DNA of 29,055 bases from a virus. A program made the position numbers and the translations under genes. The notes under the pieces were generated by a model. It did not search any database. It was not told where the DNA came from and was given only the letters and a program-made list of their open reading frames with translations. Shown piece after piece: positions 8,623 through 25,632 of the stretch. The DNA lies in the IMG/VR virus record IMGVR_UViG_3300021964_000359, positions 1-29,055 of that record; one strand, 5' to 3'. The stretch's first letter is position 1, and the number at the start of each line of letters is the position of its first letter.

Positions 8623-10290
8623 ATGGCTACTCAATTGCAAATGCGGAGAGGGACACAGTCCGAGCACACGTCATTCACGGGTGCCGAAGGGGAAGTGTCT
8701 GTAAACACCACAAACGAGTCTCTACACGTCCACAATGGTTCAGCGGCGGGTGGGTTCGAGCTTGCGCGTGCGGATCTTGATAACGTCTCTGACTCTGACC
8801 TAAACGCTGCGCTCACCGGCAACACGATTGGTTCATTGACCATCACCACTGCTGGCATCACCAATCTATCGTTGGGTGGGGTATCGGTCACATCCACGGC
8901 TGCTGAGTTAAACATTTTGGACGGCGTTACTTCTACTGCTGCTGAGTTAAATATCCTAGATGGTGTCACAAGCACAACAGCAGAGCTAAACATTCTTGAT
9001 GGTGTGACTGCAAGTACAGCAGAACTGAACTTCGTTGATGGTGTGACTTCAGCAATCCAGACACAGATAGACACCAAAGCGCCTCTAGCATCGCCTGCTT
9101 TTACCGGAACAGTGACAGCGGCAGGCAACGTTGGCTTGGGCCTGACGCCTAGTTCTTGGGCTGTTGGCAAAGCGGTTGAACTTGGTTTTGAGGGTAACGC
9201 TGTTTGGGGTAATGCCGCAGATGAAATGATTGTGGTTCAAAACGGTTACTACGACGGCGCGTGGAAGTACGCGACAACCAACCAAGCAACTCATTATTCC
9301 CAATACGATGGCAATCATCGTTGGTTTACTGCTCCTTCTGGAACCGCAGACTCCGCTATTTCGTGGACGCAGGCGATGACGCTTAGTAATTCAGGCTCCG
9401 TGGGCATTGGTACTAGCAGTCCAGACTCTCCTTTAGAGATTGATGGAGGTTCCACAGACAACACCGTTCTTCATCTCACATCAGGAACTGCAAATACATA
9501 CTTAAAATTGTCTGATTCAAACTCCACCAACGGGACATTCATTGGCGCAACCACTAATGATTTGAACTTTTACCCTAACAACTCACTTGCAGTTACTATG
9601 ACAGCATCAGGCTCCGTGGGTATTGGTACTAGTTCAGTTAGTGCGCCTTTGCATCTTAAGTCTAGTACAGCCAACGCAATATCTATACAAGAGAACGGTT
9701 CTGCTACAACTGGTACTGGTCAAGCTAGTAGGTTTATTAGCACTACAAGTAATGTTACTGATGTTATTGATTCTAATGGATATTATAGGATTGGCAGTAG
9801 CACTAATCCTGTAACCGGGGCTGGTTTTGCAGAACGTATGCGCATCCTGTCTACAGGCGGCATCACCTTCAACGGCGATACAGCACAAGCCAATGCGCTG
9901 AATGATTACGAAAGTGGCACTTGGACGCCGACGATATCGGGTTGCACCATAACCGTACAGCGAGCGAATTATGTAAAGATTGGTGGTTTAGTGCATTTAT
10001 CATTCACCATGAATATAAACTCAAGCGACGGTAGCTCTACGCAAATTTCGATTGGCGGTGTGCCTTTTACCGCCTCCGTCGCAAACGTCGAAAGCACGGC
10101 TACGTTTATGGCGGAAAACGTTAATTTCCCTTCCGGCACTATCATGGCGAATCTGTACAAATATAGCCAAGCAGGGATAGTGTCAATTTACGCTACCCTT
10201 CAAAACTCCTCTCTCACTGCTGTTTTGCGCTCCGCACTTAGCAGTTCGTCTACGCTGTGGGGGTCAATTGTTTTTCAGACAGACGATTAA
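8623..10290 (+). CDS. Tail fibre / receptor-binding protein
   Basis: A 555-residue fibre. Residues 1-50 (MATQLQMRRGTQSEHTSF, GAEGEVSVNTT, LHVHNG) match the short trimerising amino-terminal head found in Mtd_N/hyaluronidase-type fibres. Residues 90-141 are four copies of a 13-residue unit with xxxAELNxxDGV. Two copies of SGSVGIGTSSxxxPL at about 257 and 329 are shaft repeats. The carboxy end (YESGTWTPTISG, then a beta-rich domain of about 125 residues) is probably the receptor-binding tip. No S74 self-cleaving chaperone is visible. Part of the DNA (around 9660-9800) is much more AT-rich than the gene's 5' end, hinting at exchange of the tip region. Start is ATG 8623, two bases after the preceding gene's stop. 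Confidence 0.88.
   Translation: MATQLQMRRGTQSEHTSFTGAEGEVSVNTTNESLHVHNGSAAGGFELARADLDNVSDSDLNAALTGNTIGSLTITTAGITNLSLGGVSVTSTAAELNILDGVTSTAAELNILDGVTSTTAELNILDGVTASTAELNFVDGVTSAIQTQIDTKAPLASPAFTGTVTAAGNVGLGLTPSSWAVGKAVELGFEGNAVWGNAADEMIVVQNGYYDGAWKYATTNQATHYSQYDGNHRWFTAPSGTADSAISWTQAMTLSNSGSVGIGTSSPDSPLEIDGGSTDNTVLHLTSGTANTYLKLSDSNSTNGTFIGATTNDLNFYPNNSLAVTMTASGSVGIGTSSVSAPLHLKSSTANAISIQENGSATTGTGQASRFISTTSNVTDVIDSNGYYRIGSSTNPVTGAGFAERMRILSTGGITFNGDTAQANALNDYESGTWTPTISGCTITVQRANYVKIGGLVHLSFTMNINSSDGSSTQISIGGVPFTASVANVESTATFMAENVNFPSGTIMANLYKYSQAGIVSIYATLQNSSLTAVLRSALSSSSTLWGSIVFQTDD
8890..9045 (+). repeat. Four tandem 39-base units encoding 13-residue fibre repeats
   Basis: Units begin at 8890, 8929, 8968 and 9007 and encode TSTAAELNILDGV, TSTAAELNILDGV, TSTTAELNILDGV and TASTAELNFVDGV. 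The protein copies are nearly identical while the codons differ widely, so the repeat is kept by selection on protein rather than by recent duplication. Confidence 0.9.
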
Positions 10291-14918: not shown

Positions 14919-15078
14919 CCATCAACTCCTTCATTTGGGTTCTTAGGTACTCGTGACGCTCTACCGAGTTTCTTGGTAAATCACAGTTGCGGATGTTGTC
15001 CACAACCTGCGAAATGGGGGTGGGTACCAGTTCATCATCTGGCCCATCGGTCATTAGTTCAGACTTAACGCGACCCAT
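14893..15078 (-). CDS. Small unknown early protein
   Basis: A 61-residue protein upstream of the ERF gene, overlapping it by 26 bases. The start at 15078 has GGAGG six bases before it and overlaps the end of the upstream gene. The sequence has a charged, flexible amino half and a helical carboxy half (VERHEYLRTQMKELMDGIK). I recognise no family. The overlap suggests translational coupling with ERF, so a role in recombination or in recruiting it is possible but unproven. Confidence 0.65.
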   Translation of the reverse strand: MGRVKSELMTDGPDDELVPTPISQVVDNIRNCDLPRNSVERHEYLRTQMKELMDGIKTNLD

Positions 15079-15499
15079 GAGGAACCTCCGTCACGCAGCC
15101 AATCTGATAGCCACGGTGGTAGATAAACCACTGGCCCGATTCGTTGCAGTCCCAGATGTCGGCAGGGACATAAGCACCGTTCTGATATTCGCGGATCTGC
15201 CAATGGAAGTTTTCAGCCCACCACTTTTGAAGGTCTGCCATGTCTGCTCGGCTTTCACTAACCAACCCGTTCTCAAAGGTCTGGTACTCATCCATGCCAT
15301 ACCAGTGGAGGTTAAAATTGACATGGTTGTTTTTAGGTTTGCCAAGATCGCAGTGAGGGCAAAGGATGAAGCCTCTGCCAGAATCTCGGAAGTCCACCAT
15401 GTCTGACTTGCAGGTTGGGCAGGTGGTTTGGTCTATGTCATCGCCCCAAAGTCTTTGGAACTCTGGGTCAGCTTCGATTGGTCTATCAGGTACAAGCAT
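15065..15499 (-). CDS. Zinc-ribbon protein of unknown function
   Basis: A 144-residue protein with an amino-terminal zinc ribbon: TTCPTCKSDM (Cys27, Cys30) and GFILCPHCDLG (Cys47, Cys50). The rest contains several Trp and Tyr residues (FNLHWYGMDEYQTF, WWAENFHWQI) and a beta-rich end. Start ATG 15499 has a strong AAGGAGG four bases upstream, within the repeated element also seen at 19596. It is the second gene of the leftward early unit; zinc-ribbon proteins in this place may act in replication or transcription control. No family recognised. Confidence 0.7.
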   Translation of the reverse strand: MLVPDRPIEADPEFQRLWGDDIDQTTCPTCKSDMVDFRDSGRGFILCPHCDLGKPKNNHVNFNLHWYGMDEYQTFENGLVSESRADMADLQKWWAENFHWQIREYQNGAYVPADIWDCNESGQWFIYHRGYQIGCVTEVPHGSR

Positions 15500-16436: not shown

Positions 16437-16754
16437 ATGGATAGACTAGACCAGATATTGGATAGGTTGGGCCAACGTATAACCGAGTGGGAGGGGGCGA
16501 GTAGGGAAGCAATTGAAGCAGAAACCAATTTTAAGAGCTTTGAGGCTAGCAGCCAGAAGGCGCACATGGATGCAGGGGCAAGCGCTGCTAAGGCGCAAAC
16601 AGAAACCAGATCAAGCGGAGAGTGGGCCAACCACTACCGAACAGTCCAGCAAGCCAGTCTAAAGGCTGAGACACTCAAGAAGAAAATCATGCTTGGGCAA
16701 CTGGCGTTTGATGCTGAACGAACCAAGCAAGCCAACCAGCGGAGGATCGTCTGA
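16437..16754 (+). CDS. Helical unknown protein, first gene of the rightward early block
   Basis: A 105-residue protein, almost entirely helical and charged (DRLDQILDRLGQRITEWEGASREAIEAE, then a Gln/Ala/Lys-rich second half) and probably a coiled-coil oligomer. ATG 16437 is preferred: GGGAG stands six bases upstream, whereas the in-frame ATG at 16410 has no ribosome site. It ends at the start of the PP-loop gene (TGATG overlap). No family recognised. Its position suggests a partner of the nucleic-acid enzymes that follow. Confidence 0.7.
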   Translation: MDRLDQILDRLGQRITEWEGASREAIEAETNFKSFEASSQKAHMDAGASAAKAQTETRSSGEWANHYRTVQQASLKAETLKKKIMLGQLAFDAERTKQANQRRIV

Positions 16755-17563
16755 TGCTAACAGTGATTAGTTTAGGGGCGGGGGTGCAGTCTTCGGTTAT
16801 GGCGTTAATGGCGGCAAAGGGACAGATCACACCAATGCCTGACTGCGCGATATTCGCTGACACGCAAGCAGAACCAGACCATATTTATGAGTGGCTGGAT
16901 TGGCTAGAAACGCAATTACCTTTTCCTATCTACAGGGTTTCTGCTGGCAACCTTCGAGACGACCTTATCGCTAGCTCGGAGACTGGGGCCAGGGTGCCAA
17001 ATCCTCCTTTGTTCGTGCAGTCGGTAAAAAGCGACGGCATGTTATTTAGGCAGTGCACATCTGACTACAAGATCCAGCCTATATTTAAGAAACTGCGAGA
17101 GTTGATTGGTCTTAAACCGCGGCAGCGAGCGCCCAAGGAAGTGGCTGTTGAGCAGTGGATCGGTATCAGCCAGGATGAAATGCAGCGTATGAAGATGGCT
17201 CCGCATAAGTGGATAGAAAACCGCTGGCCTTTGATTGAGATGCGAATGAGTCGGCTGCATTGCTTGCAGTGGATGAAGGACAATGGCTACAACGAACTGC
17301 CAAGAAAGTCTGCTTGCACATTCTGCCCATATCACGACAACGCGACTTGGCGCGAGATGAAGGCTAACGACAAAAAGTCATGGACTGAGGCGGTGGTTGT
17401 TGACCGTCTGATCCGCAACGGCATTAACAAGACCACCGAAGGCAACAGGCTGTACCTTCACCGCAGCCGCGTTCCATTGGATGAGGCCGATTTGAGTGAT
17501 CCGGCAGAAGACCAAGAAACATTCAGTTTCATGGATGAGTGCGAAGGTATGTGTGGCATCTGA
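16754..17563 (+). CDS. PP-loop ATPase, PAPS reductase-like family
   Basis: A 269-residue member of the adenine nucleotide alpha-hydrolase (PP-loop) superfamily. The nucleotide-binding loop is SLGAGVQSS (residues 6-14), followed by FADTQAE (34-40), the RQCTSDYK segment (99-106), WIGISQDE (135-142) and a cysteine-rich end: Cys170, CTFC (188-191) and CEGMC (263-267), enough to hold an iron-sulfur cluster or zinc. Enzymes of this superfamily adenylate a substrate with ATP and often move sulfur (PAPS reductase, TtcA, DndC). Phages often carry this subgroup labelled PAPS reductase, but a nucleic-acid modification role is equally possible. The gene lies directly before a NinG-like nuclease. Start ATG 16754 overlaps the previous stop. 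Confidence 0.85.
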   Translation: MLTVISLGAGVQSSVMALMAAKGQITPMPDCAIFADTQAEPDHIYEWLDWLETQLPFPIYRVSAGNLRDDLIASSETGARVPNPPLFVQSVKSDGMLFRQCTSDYKIQPIFKKLRELIGLKPRQRAPKEVAVEQWIGISQDEMQRMKMAPHKWIENRWPLIEMRMSRLHCLQWMKDNGYNELPRKSACTFCPYHDNATWREMKANDKKSWTEAVVVDRLIRNGINKTTEGNRLYLHRSRVPLDEADLSDPAEDQETFSFMDECEGMCGI

Positions 17564-19959: not shown

Positions 19960-19990
19960 TTGCCTTTTTTGTAAAAAAGACGGGTATAAT
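19960..19990 (+). promoter_or_regulatory. Rightward late promoter candidate
   Basis: A perfect -10 box TATAAT (19985-19990) with a poor -35 (TTGCCT at 19960-19965, 19-base spacer). A small stem AAAAAG/CTTTTT overlaps the -35 region. A weak -35 with an ideal -10 often marks an activator-dependent promoter. It would serve the lysis genes and the terminase. Confidence 0.55.
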
Positions 19991-21492: not shown

Positions 21493-21830
21493 GCAGACCC
21501 TTGATTGAAATAGACTGGGATCAGGTTGATGAGATGTGCCGCATCCACTGTACGGGAGAGGAGCAGGCAGCAGTTCTAGGGATCGACTATGACACCTTGA
21601 ACCGAGCCTGTAAGAGAGAGCAGGGGCTAAGTTTTACGGAGTATTTCAAACAAAAGAGCGCATCAGGTAAAATGAGCCTAAGACGTAGGCAATACACCAA
21701 GGCCATGGACGGTGATAACACTCAGTTGATCTGGCTCGGCAAGAACTGGCTAGGACAGTCAGATCAGCCAGAAGTAGAAGCACAAGACCTGCCACCAATC
21801 GTCATAGAGCGGGCGAGTGAGGCTAACTAA
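21489..21830 (+). CDS. terS: Terminase small subunit
   Basis: A 113-residue protein directly before the large terminase. Residues 8-45 (DWDQVDEMCRIHCTGEEQAAVLGIDYDTLNRACKREQG) have a helix-turn-helix that would bind the packaging start site; RRRQYTKAMDGDNTQLIWLGKNWLGQSDQ (65-93) is a typical oligomerisation and carboxy region of phage small terminases. The family pattern with 'xxxLGKxxLGQ' is common. The stop overlaps the TerL GTG by 14 bases. The two proteins together recognise, cut and translocate phage DNA into the prohead. Confidence 0.88.
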   Translation: MSRPLIEIDWDQVDEMCRIHCTGEEQAAVLGIDYDTLNRACKREQGLSFTEYFKQKSASGKMSLRRRQYTKAMDGDNTQLIWLGKNWLGQSDQPEVEAQDLPPIVIERASEAN

Positions 21831-23043
21831 GCCACAAGATGACATCTTCTTCAGTGACTCACGGTTCAGGGCGGTGGTCGCTGGTAGACGATTTGGGAAG
21901 ACGTTTCTTTCTACCCATGAGCTTCTTCGTGCTGCCCTAGAAGGCAAGAACAGGAACTGCTGGTATGTCGCGCCGACCTACAAGGCTGCAAAAGAGATAG
22001 CCTGGGACATGCTGAACGAGGCTTTGCCTGCTGGGTATATCAGTAAGCGGAACGAAACCGCGCTATCGCTGACGCTCAAGAATGGTTCTACTATATCCCT
22101 CAAAGGGGCAGAGAAGCCTGACAACCTTAGAGGGAGGGCGTTGGACTTTGTTGTCCTGGACGAGTTCGCAGATATGCGGAAGGAAGCGTGGTACGAAGTG
22201 CTGCGGCCCAGTCTGTCGGATCGTCATTCTGGAGATAATCCGACACGGGCACTGTTCATTGGAACACCGAAGGGGCGCAACCATTTCTATGACATCTGGA
22301 CGCGAGGCGTCGATGAGGAGGAGGGCTGGGAAGCCTTCCAGTATACGACCATCGAGGGCGGTAATGTTGACGAGACTGAGATCGAGGCAGCGCGGAATGA
22401 CCTAGACGAAAGGACATTCAGCCAAGAGTATCAAGCCAAGTTCGTTAACTACTCCGGCATCATCTACTACGCATTCAGCCGAGAGGAGAGCGTGCGGAAG
22501 GGTTACATGAACGACCAGCTACACATTGGCATGGACTTCAACCTAGACCCTATGAGCGCAGCCGTATGCGTCAGAGAGGCGGATACGATCCAAGTGATCG
22601 ACGAGATCGTTATTTATGGATCAAACACCGACGAGATGGTGGACGAGATCAAGCAACGGTATGGTGACAGACAAATCACTATCTACCCTGACCCAGCTAG
22701 TAAACAGAGAAAGACCAGCGCGGGAGGGAGGACAGACCTATCAATCCTCCAGAACGCAGGGTTTGCGGTAAAGGTGCGGAACAGTCACCCCGCCATCAGG
22801 GACAGAATCAACAGCGTAAACAGCAGGCTACGCTCCACCAGTGGAGTGCGGTCTTTGTTCATTGACCCCAAGTGCAAGCAGACCATCGCTTCATTGGAAC
22901 GACAGACCTACAAGGAAGGCACTAGCCAACCCAACAAAGATGACGGTTATGACCACATGAATGACGCACTGGGATATTTGGTCGAGTACCTATATCCAAT
23001 CAGGAAACAAAGAGAGATCGAACAACCAGTGAGGTGGAGCTAG
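21817..23043 (+). CDS. terL: Terminase large subunit
   Basis: A 408-residue packaging motor with ATPase and nuclease. Walker A is AGRRFGKT (residues 22-29), Walker B VVLDE (112-116, Asp115-Glu116), and FIGTPKG (137-143) is the coupling motif. The nuclease half has MDFNLDP (239-245), YPDPA (280-284) and GYDHMNDALGYLVEYL (367-382) with acidic residues suited to metal binding. The start is GTG 21817, within the end of the small subunit gene, and size matches short terminases. Which packaging mode (cos or headful) is used cannot be told; no cos site was recognised. Confidence 0.96.
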   Translation: MRLTKPQDDIFFSDSRFRAVVAGRRFGKTFLSTHELLRAALEGKNRNCWYVAPTYKAAKEIAWDMLNEALPAGYISKRNETALSLTLKNGSTISLKGAEKPDNLRGRALDFVVLDEFADMRKEAWYEVLRPSLSDRHSGDNPTRALFIGTPKGRNHFYDIWTRGVDEEEGWEAFQYTTIEGGNVDETEIEAARNDLDERTFSQEYQAKFVNYSGIIYYAFSREESVRKGYMNDQLHIGMDFNLDPMSAAVCVREADTIQVIDEIVIYGSNTDEMVDEIKQRYGDRQITIYPDPASKQRKTSAGGRTDLSILQNAGFAVKVRNSHPAIRDRINSVNSRLRSTSGVRSLFIDPKCKQTIASLERQTYKEGTSQPNKDDGYDHMNDALGYLVEYLYPIRKQREIEQPVRWS

Positions 23044-24425
23044 TGAACAGCAACATTGAGTATCAACATCCCGACTACGATGCCAACGAGAATAGGTGGG
23101 AGCTTTATGTTCGCTCATACCTTGGGGGTGAGGAGTATCAGGCAGGGAACTACCTGACCGGCTACTTGAACGAGTCGGAAAATGAGTATGCTCGACGCAT
23201 ACAGTTAACCCCGATTGACAACCACTGCCGCAACGTCGTCCACATCTACAGTTCGTTTCTGTGGCGTACTCCCCCTGTTCGCGTTTTTAACTCGCTAGCC
23301 AACAACCCAGCGCTAGAGGCGATGATAAGCGATGCCGACCTAGATGGCGCAAGCCTCAACAGTTTTATGAAACAGGCGCAGATCTGGTCATCGGTTTATG
23401 GGCACGTTTGGATTCTTGTAGACAAGCCAGAGTCCAACGCGCAAACGAGAGCGGAGGAGCTAGACCAAGACATCCGGCCCTATCTCTCTCTATTCACGCC
23501 TGAAAACGTCTTCGACTGGAAGTGGGAGCGCACACCCTCTGGACGTTTCGAACTCACCTACCTAAAGCTCAGAGAAGCCGTAGACCGTGAGAACGCCACA
23601 ACTAAGGTGAGCTACTATCGCATCTGGCGGAAAGACACGATCCAGCAGTGGAAGTCTGACGGCGACAAAGAGCAGATGATCGGCGAGATCGACAACCCAC
23701 TAGGCAAGATTCCAGCGGTCTATCTGCCTGCCCAACGCAGTGTGACCCGTGGAGTGGGCGTGAGTGACCTGTCAGACATTGCCTACATGCAAAAGGCTAT
23801 CTACAGTGAGCTTTCAGAGATCGAGCAGCTAATCCGCATCAGCAATCACCCCTCCCTGGTTAAGACCTACGACACCGATGCGAGTGCGGGAGCGGGTTCT
23901 GTCATTAACGTGCCCGATGACGCAGCCGAAACCATGAAGCCGTTTCTGCTACAACCTTCAGGCCAGAACATCAACAGCATTCGAGAGTCCATCAAGGACA
24001 AAGTGGAAGCGATTAACCGCATGGCCCAGATGGGCGCTGTACGCGGAACGGATGCCAAGACGATGTCAGGCATTGCCATGCAGACCGAGTTCCAGATGCT
24101 GAACGCCAAGCTATCAGAGAAAGCTGATCTGCTGGAGCTAGCCGAAGAACATATGTGGACGTACTTCTGCAACTGGTTAGACGTAACGCCAGACGTAGAG
24201 GTGTTCTACCCTGATTCCTTCGACATCCGCGACTACGATAAAGAGCTTGAGTTCTTGCAGAAGATGAAAGCCAGCGGTGTCAGATCAGTCACATTAGCGC
24301 AAGAGCTAGACAAGCAAATCGCCGACCTCGCCCTTGATGATGACAAGTTGGCGCAATCCCATGTCGAGATCGAAGGATCGGCGCAGGTTCTAGGTCAGTT
24401 CCCAGTGGAGACTGAGGCGCGGTAA
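23043..24425 (+). CDS. Portal protein (SPP1 gp6/DUF4055-like)
   Basis: A 460-residue protein following TerL, the position of the dodecameric portal through which DNA enters and leaves. Recognisable parts are QLTPIDNHCRNVVHIYSSFLWRTPP (residues 54-78), YGHVWILVDKP (116-126), PYLSLFTPENVFDWKW and ISNHPSLVKTY with a helical carboxy third (EKADLLELAEEHMWTYFCNW). This agrees with SPP1-type portals of the DUF4055 kind. The start at GTG 23043 in TAGTG, with GAGG about eight bases upstream, is preferred; an in-frame GTG at 23034 adds three residues. The stop overlaps the minor head gene in TAATG. Confidence 0.88.
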   Translation: MNSNIEYQHPDYDANENRWELYVRSYLGGEEYQAGNYLTGYLNESENEYARRIQLTPIDNHCRNVVHIYSSFLWRTPPVRVFNSLANNPALEAMISDADLDGASLNSFMKQAQIWSSVYGHVWILVDKPESNAQTRAEELDQDIRPYLSLFTPENVFDWKWERTPSGRFELTYLKLREAVDRENATTKVSYYRIWRKDTIQQWKSDGDKEQMIGEIDNPLGKIPAVYLPAQRSVTRGVGVSDLSDIAYMQKAIYSELSEIEQLIRISNHPSLVKTYDTDASAGAGSVINVPDDAAETMKPFLLQPSGQNINSIRESIKDKVEAINRMAQMGAVRGTDAKTMSGIAMQTEFQMLNAKLSEKADLLELAEEHMWTYFCNWLDVTPDVEVFYPDSFDIRDYDKELEFLQKMKASGVRSVTLAQELDKQIADLALDDDKLAQSHVEIEGSAQVLGQFPVETEAR

Positions 24426-25303
24426 TGGCAGCAGCCGATGACTACGCAGAGTTCCTAGAGCGGCTGACTGATTCACATCAGCAGCGCATCACAGAGATGC
24501 TACAGCTAACAGAGAACGACCTAGCCAACTATCTACAAACCGCCCCTGATACTGATGGGGCTATGTTTGACGTTGAGTGGGCGGTCAATGCTCGGACGGA
24601 GATGAGGCGGATTCTTGAGGAGGACTATCTAGCTCAGGTGCAGGACATGCTGGGCGACTATAGGGCCGTGGCAGCCGAGCAACTAGGAATGCTAAATACC
24701 TACGGGACGTTCACAAGAGTCGCTCCAGAGGCCATAGCGGGGCTACAGAGGCTATCTTTTCAAGGGTTCGAGGCATTGGCAGCACAGCAGCTAGATACGC
24801 TGGCTAATGGCGTCTATCAGGCAGCGCTGATAGGAAGGGAAAAAGCAGACTTTATCCAAGAGGTGAGGGGGCAGATTAATGGAATCTATCAAGCGAGCGA
24901 TCAAGAGGAAATTCGCCAACTGGTTGAGGTGGCTAAAAACTCAACTGGAGCCAGACAACAGGCGGCGATTGATAGACTTCACGGAGTTTATGCTGCTGAC
25001 CGCTTGGGCAATAACTTGCGGCGTTATGCGACAGGTTATGCAACGGATTCGCTCAATCAATATTCGGCGACCCTAACCGCCACCACTGCCAACGAGCAAG
25101 GCATTGACCGCTTTGAATACTACGGGGACGTGATCCGCGACAGCCGTGAGTTCTGCAAGAAGCACGTCGGCAAGGAATACACGCGAGAAGAAATCACGCG
25201 CATATGGGCGGGAAGTTGGGCAGGTAAGGCTCCAGGTGATCCGTTCATCGTGAGGGGTGGCTACAACTGCCGCCATCAATGGCTACCAATCGTAGAGGAA
25301 TAA
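24425..25303 (+). CDS. Minor head protein (SPP1 gp7/Mu gpF-like)
   Basis: A 292-residue protein. The first two thirds are helical; the carboxy domain, DRFEYYGDVIRDSREFCKKHVGKEYTREEI (about 225-255) and PGDPFIVRGGYNCRHQWLP (about 270-289), is the conserved Mu F-like domain with the two cysteines and histidines often predicted to bind a metal. Such proteins bind the portal, help head assembly and are thought to enter the cell with the DNA. It is coupled to the portal through TAATG. Confidence 0.88.
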   Translation: MAAADDYAEFLERLTDSHQQRITEMLQLTENDLANYLQTAPDTDGAMFDVEWAVNARTEMRRILEEDYLAQVQDMLGDYRAVAAEQLGMLNTYGTFTRVAPEAIAGLQRLSFQGFEALAAQQLDTLANGVYQAALIGREKADFIQEVRGQINGIYQASDQEEIRQLVEVAKNSTGARQQAAIDRLHGVYAADRLGNNLRRYATGYATDSLNQYSATLTATTANEQGIDRFEYYGDVIRDSREFCKKHVGKEYTREEITRIWAGSWAGKAPGDPFIVRGGYNCRHQWLPIVEE

Positions 25304-25563: not shown

Positions 25564-25580
25564 AAGATAACCGCCAGCTA

Positions 25581-25607
25581 TTGACATCCCTGTGAAGCTG
25601 GTATAAT
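25581..25607 (+). promoter_or_regulatory. Consensus promoter for scaffold and capsid genes
   Basis: TTGACA (25581-25586) and TATAAT (25602-25607) are both perfect sigma70 boxes, but 15 bases apart, shorter than the ideal 17. TGG before the -10 is an extended -10 motif. CCAGCT (25574-25579) and AGCTGG (25596-25601) form a perfect inverted repeat around the -35 box, a possible operator. Transcription would begin near 25614. Confidence 0.85.
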
Positions 25608-25632
25608 GCCCCCACTCGAAAGAGGTTCGTAC

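Follow-up and report, generated by a model that had tools for sequence, protein, structure and literature searches.

Gene order and promoter-like site

The window analysed here comprises all 29,055 bases of a virus record in IMG/VR that is classed as linear. On its plus strand a head-morphogenesis run leads from the terminase large subunit through portal, a 292-residue protein and a 94-residue open reading frame (ORF) to the scaffold and major capsid genes. The 69-base pair (bp) gap between this small lysine-rich ORF and the scaffold gene is occupied by TTGACA-N15-TATAAT (25581-25607, plus strand), flanked and overlapped by CCAGCT/AGCTGG. A sequence-only reading of the window had reported ideal TTGACA and TATAAT boxes at 15-base spacing, and both were present where it placed them. 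Absent from that reading was an extended -10 motif: the spacer ends in TGG, i.e. a TGn directly 5' of the -10 hexamer, and the resulting TGGTATAAT (25599-25607) is the sole TGnTATAAT of the window. The hexamer pair is the single 12/12 match in the window, 0.0098 being expected under a first-order model for spacings of 15-19 bp on both strands; a promoter scan restricted to 16-18 bp spacers skips it. Native Escherichia coli promoters are reported to space their -35 and -10 boxes by 15-21 bp (PMC8695583), which puts the site at the lower limit of that range.

An ATG at 25606 (within TATAATG) was considered as a start codon and rejected; it lacks a Shine-Dalgarno sequence and is often out of the scaffold frame in relatives, because there the -10 box lies 25, 26 or 27 nucleotides (nt) from the scaffold ATG. 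A minus-strand TTGACA-N15-TATATT near 10165-10186 was taken as chance: it lies within a tail gene (8623-10290), and none was found in the other seven contigs scanned.

Sampling and grouping of relatives

Relatives were collected from IMG/VR by protein searches with the capsid (best 80 of 595 confirmed loci), the scaffold (69 loci) and two divergent scaffold proteins (best 80 of 183 and best 80 of 167), many of the loci overlapping. From 306 scaffold-matched loci, 20 were dropped for short upstream sequence; the remaining 286 gave 119 distinct 106-base upstream sequences, of which 115 were used after removal of three isolates and one mis-set start. What was counted is distinct sequences rather than contigs, and one contig can contribute several loci. 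Grouping by nearest scaffold reference protein gave 26 sequences of the window type (A and A2), 8 of type B, 8 of C, 18 of D, 25 of E and 30 of F. In a tree of 120 scaffold proteins, A, A2, B and C formed one clade of 48 (support 100/99), neighboured by D and then E, with F and the isolates outside; the midpoint root served for drawing only. Tree labels were derived from regular expressions and are imperfect: L326, L327, L328, L329, L334 and L347 were labelled F_none, despite a TGnTACAAT-like box in all of these but L334, which shares a listed sequence, and L364, labelled E, falls within F. Change counts for E and F were not relied on. No close DNA relatives were found among isolate phages, the nearest isolates being ~45-50 percent identical by capsid protein.

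Conservation of the site

All 26 window-type sequences carried TTGACA-15-TATAAT (19) or TTGACA-15-TATACT (7), all eight of type B carried TTGACT-15-TATAAT, and both the spacing of 15 and the TG were held in every one of these 34 distinct upstream sequences. When a degenerate motif with the spacing fixed at 15 was scanned over all IMG/VR contigs, 65 sites were obtained, each of them 25-27 nt 5' of a scaffold start codon (25, 26 and 27 nt at 33, 16 and 16 sites, respectively). TTGACW-N15-TAWAMT occurred exactly once in 10 of 11 related records (21.6-31.2 kilobases, kb) and not in the remaining one, and among promoter-like pairs at 14-20 bp in eight contigs the site scored highest in seven, the eighth (G009) having none above 10 of 13. 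Between the window and the type B member L079, 24/27 core positions were identical vs 37/68 fourfold-degenerate scaffold sites (Fisher p 0.0017); for the spacer only the figure was 13/15 (p 0.022 vs the fourfold sites). Conservation starts at the -35 box, since the flank 5' of it shows no relation between types A and B and varies among A members. Type E mostly showed TGnTACAAT or TGnTACACT, with a -35 weak at best. This distribution fits a promoter assembled gradually in the inner clade, on a tree rooted for drawing only.

Table 1. Positions of the site, its parts and the adjacent genes in the window.
Feature	Position	Strand	Observation
Terminase large subunit gene	21817-23043	+	
Portal gene	23034-24425	+	
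292-residue protein gene	24425-25303	+	
Small lysine-rich ORF, 94 residues	25279-25563	+	Ends 17 bp 5' of -35 box; no PHROG match
Left arm CCAGCT, judged incidental	25574-25579	+	Exact repeat in 7/26 window-type, 0/8 sister-type (B)
-35 element TTGACA	25581-25586	+	26/26 distinct window-type upstream sequences; TTGACT in 8/8 sister-type
Spacer, 15 bp, TCCCTGTGAAGCTGG	25587-25601	+	Length 15 in 34/34 distinct sequences of both groups; 13/15 positions common with type B
Right arm AGCTGG, overlaps TGG-TATAAT	25596-25601	+	Conservation largely due to the extended -10 within it
Extended -10 motif TGG (TGn)	25599-25601	+	TG in 34/34
-10 element TATAAT	25602-25607	+	TATAAT or TATACT in relatives
Predicted transcription start, A	25614	+	Predicted from position: seventh base past -10 box, 19-nt leader
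Leader box ACTCGAAAGAGG	25614-25625	+	3-bp CTC/GAG stem-loop holding the Shine-Dalgarno (predicted fold); CTC-N3-5-GAG in relatives
Head scaffolding protein gene, 222 residues	25633-26301	+	phrog_2303, E 3.5e-12
Major capsid protein gene, 277 residues	26328-27161	+	phrog_267, E 1.9e-27

Probable internal promoter for scaffold and capsid

Sequence, uniqueness, position and conservation together make it probable that the site is an internal promoter of the host sigma70 type, placed within the head-morphogenesis operon of tailed phages that form an uncultured, mostly marine clade, and boosting scaffold and capsid mRNA. Its earlier designation as a promoter is thus supported by conservation and position; the marine origin is suggested by the relation to Pelagibacter phages, not by habitat records. 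A housekeeping sigma70-type host RNA polymerase would bind the consensus -35, the extended -10 TG and the consensus -10; transcripts beginning near A25614 would carry a short leader and supply extra scaffold and major capsid mRNA relative to the terminase and portal genes upstream. Scaffold and capsid make up the bulk of the head protein, and far more of them is needed than of terminase and portal; because the promoter sits directly before their genes, a role in dosage is likely.

Several observations weigh against this interpretation. In type C, TTGACA was retained and the -10 (TAAAAAT) could be read at 15 or 16 bp, an ambiguity; type D showed a GGTTAnACT box only, without a clear -35 and hence no promoter of clear form; in type F no recognisable promoter was found 5' of the scaffold gene, which nearly abuts the preceding gene; and the site was absent from the scaffold upstream region of the isolates HTVC111P, HTVC026P and DSL-LC06. 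Phages of this type can therefore live without the promoter, as it is missing from the nearest isolates and F and, in its clear form, from D. Between the window and the A2 member L038 (core of the L038/L046 type), 21/27 core positions were identical vs 48/72 fourfold sites, which was not significant (p 0.33). That the host's sigma factor is of the sigma70 type is a presumption, and the Pseudomonadales label attached to one relative, L440, may be a binning artefact.

L440, with a type E upstream region, was the only capsid relative confirmed among genome contigs; its 12.4-kb contig is part of a metagenome-assembled genome labelled as uncultured Pseudomonadales.

The similarity of the spacer across types A and B, and comparisons without excess conservation such as that with A2, are what would be expected of a functionless chance match to the consensus, retained by recent common descent alone. 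Such an origin is very improbable given how few such sites are expected per window, the conservation of the core far above fourfold sites vs type B, and a position invariably 25-27 nt 5' of the scaffold start (65/65 sites) amid changing flanks.

Among known systems, the site resembles sigma70 extended -10 promoters, with TGnTATAAT and a -35 hexamer in the usual order, and is a new instance of this already known kind of promoter. It differs in that TG is usually described as paired with a weak or missing -35 (PMC8695583), whereas here both hexamers are at consensus and the spacer is 15 bp. Among the papers listed by literature searches, which extended to the nearest isolate phages, none described this site in its title or the beginning of its abstract. 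T7, too, has a capsid-gene promoter inside its structural operon, phi10, but the RNA polymerase that transcribes from it is encoded by the phage; additional transcription of capsid and scaffold genes would be common to both, but the boxes of the present site are of host type.

Inverted repeat

The sequence-only reading had also pointed to the inverted repeat around the -35 box and proposed CCAGCT-N16-AGCTGG as a regulatory target. The repeat is present as described but is weak evidence, as such repeats are common in the window: 128 6-bp inverted repeats with loops of 6-24 bp were counted, and one lay entirely within 213 of 4145 sampled stretches of 40 bp. Beyond the seven exact window-type copies, the other members of that group had one to three mismatches and type B had four; the left arm varies across the window group and is missing from the sister group with the promoter core retained, and the right arm owes its constancy to the extended -10 motif within it. 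The repeat is most likely incidental, and the proposal of a binding target was not upheld, the repeat being exact in 7/26 and 0/8 sequences while the core is kept.

Control by a phage or host protein that binds these arms and represses or activates the promoter is accordingly improbable. A 6-bp repeat straddling the -35 box would suit such control, as would the Cro/YdaS-like helix-turn-helix (HTH) protein that the phage encodes (15366-16058), and most left-arm changes still permit G-T pairing; such pairing, however, is relevant to RNA but not to a dimer that binds DNA, a repeat of this kind is present in 5 percent of 40-bp stretches in any case, and the MerR analogy requires a long spacer. As an operator the repeat was rejected as unconserved. 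A transcribed hairpin was also rejected: the arms do pair in the fold of a 77-nt stretch, but its z is -1.50 and 17/200 shuffles folded as well. No Rfam match was found in the window.

The HTH protein has 230 residues and a C-terminal Cro/YdaS-like domain (PF15943, PF14549), and its gene overlaps an opposite-strand ORF (15065-15499); the two may form a repressor control region.

Short spacer

MerR-type untwisting, to which the sequence-only reading had likened the short spacing, has the wrong sign as an analogy, since MerR-type spacers are long. That of the mer promoter is given as 19 bp (PMC11049809), MerR-family promoters are described with a strong palindrome within a 19 or 20 bp spacer (PMC1526738), and 19-nt spacers are listed for mer, soxS and Mu mom (PMC9303308). 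Helix geometry implies that untwisting would not repair a 15-bp spacer, in which a deficit of 2 bp rotates the boxes the opposite way. MerR-type promoters (mer and soxS, and also Mu mom, activated by the C protein) do share with the site a non-optimal spacer and a dyad near the boxes, but theirs measure 19-20 bp and hold the dyad within the spacer, whereas here the spacer is 15 bp in the window and its relatives, and the dyad spans the -35 box and is not preserved in relatives. Activation of this type was rejected for both reasons, the sign of the spacer deviation and the unconserved dyad. No MerR-family regulator was matched among 20 window ORFs (part of the window's ORFs) scanned against Pfam. 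Nor is a short spacer disabling: for consensus boxes in a synthetic E. coli library, expression was reported as high at spacers of 15-19 bp (PMC8695583).

On the best reading, the short spacer of the internal promoter has been maintained by selection or by recent descent. It is a stable property of the promoter, most likely tuning one that would otherwise bind too tightly. In consensus promoters with 17 bp spacing, the TG motif is argued to bind the polymerase so tightly that output drops (PMC8695583); in this light, a 15-bp spacer may let the phage keep all contact elements without trapping the polymerase. A broader proposal, in which all elements stand at consensus and are detuned solely by the 15-bp spacer, either against trapping or for preferential firing on relaxed late-infection DNA, so that spacer length would be a control knob for capsid, is speculative and at present rather doubtful.

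Timing set by DNA topology is an unlikely alternative. The short spacer would make the promoter sensitive to DNA relaxation, and capsid would be boosted when replicating, heavily transcribed phage DNA loses negative supercoiling. Relaxation-activated promoters of E. coli are reported to have shorter spacers than repressed ones, and an elastic model to be valid for 15-19 nt except 16 (PMC9303308). A putative promoter heading the same gene run (19960-19990) deviates the other way, with a 19-bp spacer in five of eight contigs. Other relatives do not retain that spacing, and the distance to the -35 box may count for less when the extended -10 is complete.

With a single site kept in one place at 15 bp, and its contacts otherwise ideal, dozens of related phages amount to a natural, replicated experiment on the purpose of a non-optimal spacer. 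Should the spacing prove functional, the idea that spacer length evolved to regulate capsid dosage would gain support; otherwise, the site is an ordinary internal promoter.

Further features of the window and its relatives

The promoter-like site at 19960-19990, TTGCCT-N19-TATAAT, heads the rightward run towards terminase. Two arms, CTTTTTT/AAAAAAG, with a 2-nt centre (19964-19979) extend across the edge of its -35 and inside the 19-bp spacer, an arrangement nearer to the MerR type than that of 25581-25607. It was found in the window, G001, G002, G004 and G005; the 19-bp spacing was not retained in G003, G008, G009 or L149.

Type C loci (L127:330-405 and others) have TTTACCC-GAAA-GGGTAAA in the spacer that separates the -35 from the presumed -10; this is a 7-bp stem capped by a GAAA loop.

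The leader box was found by regular expression as CTC-N3-5-GAG 5' of the scaffold start in 113/115 distinct relatives; the other two were missed because their start was mis-set, and show the box by eye further upstream. As ACTC-N4-GAGG it was seen even in relatives without a visible promoter. Its stem is only 3 bp, and translational control is a possible role.

A phosphoadenosine phosphosulfate reductase-like gene (16754-17563; phrog_424, E 8.3e-49) is possibly an auxiliary metabolic gene.
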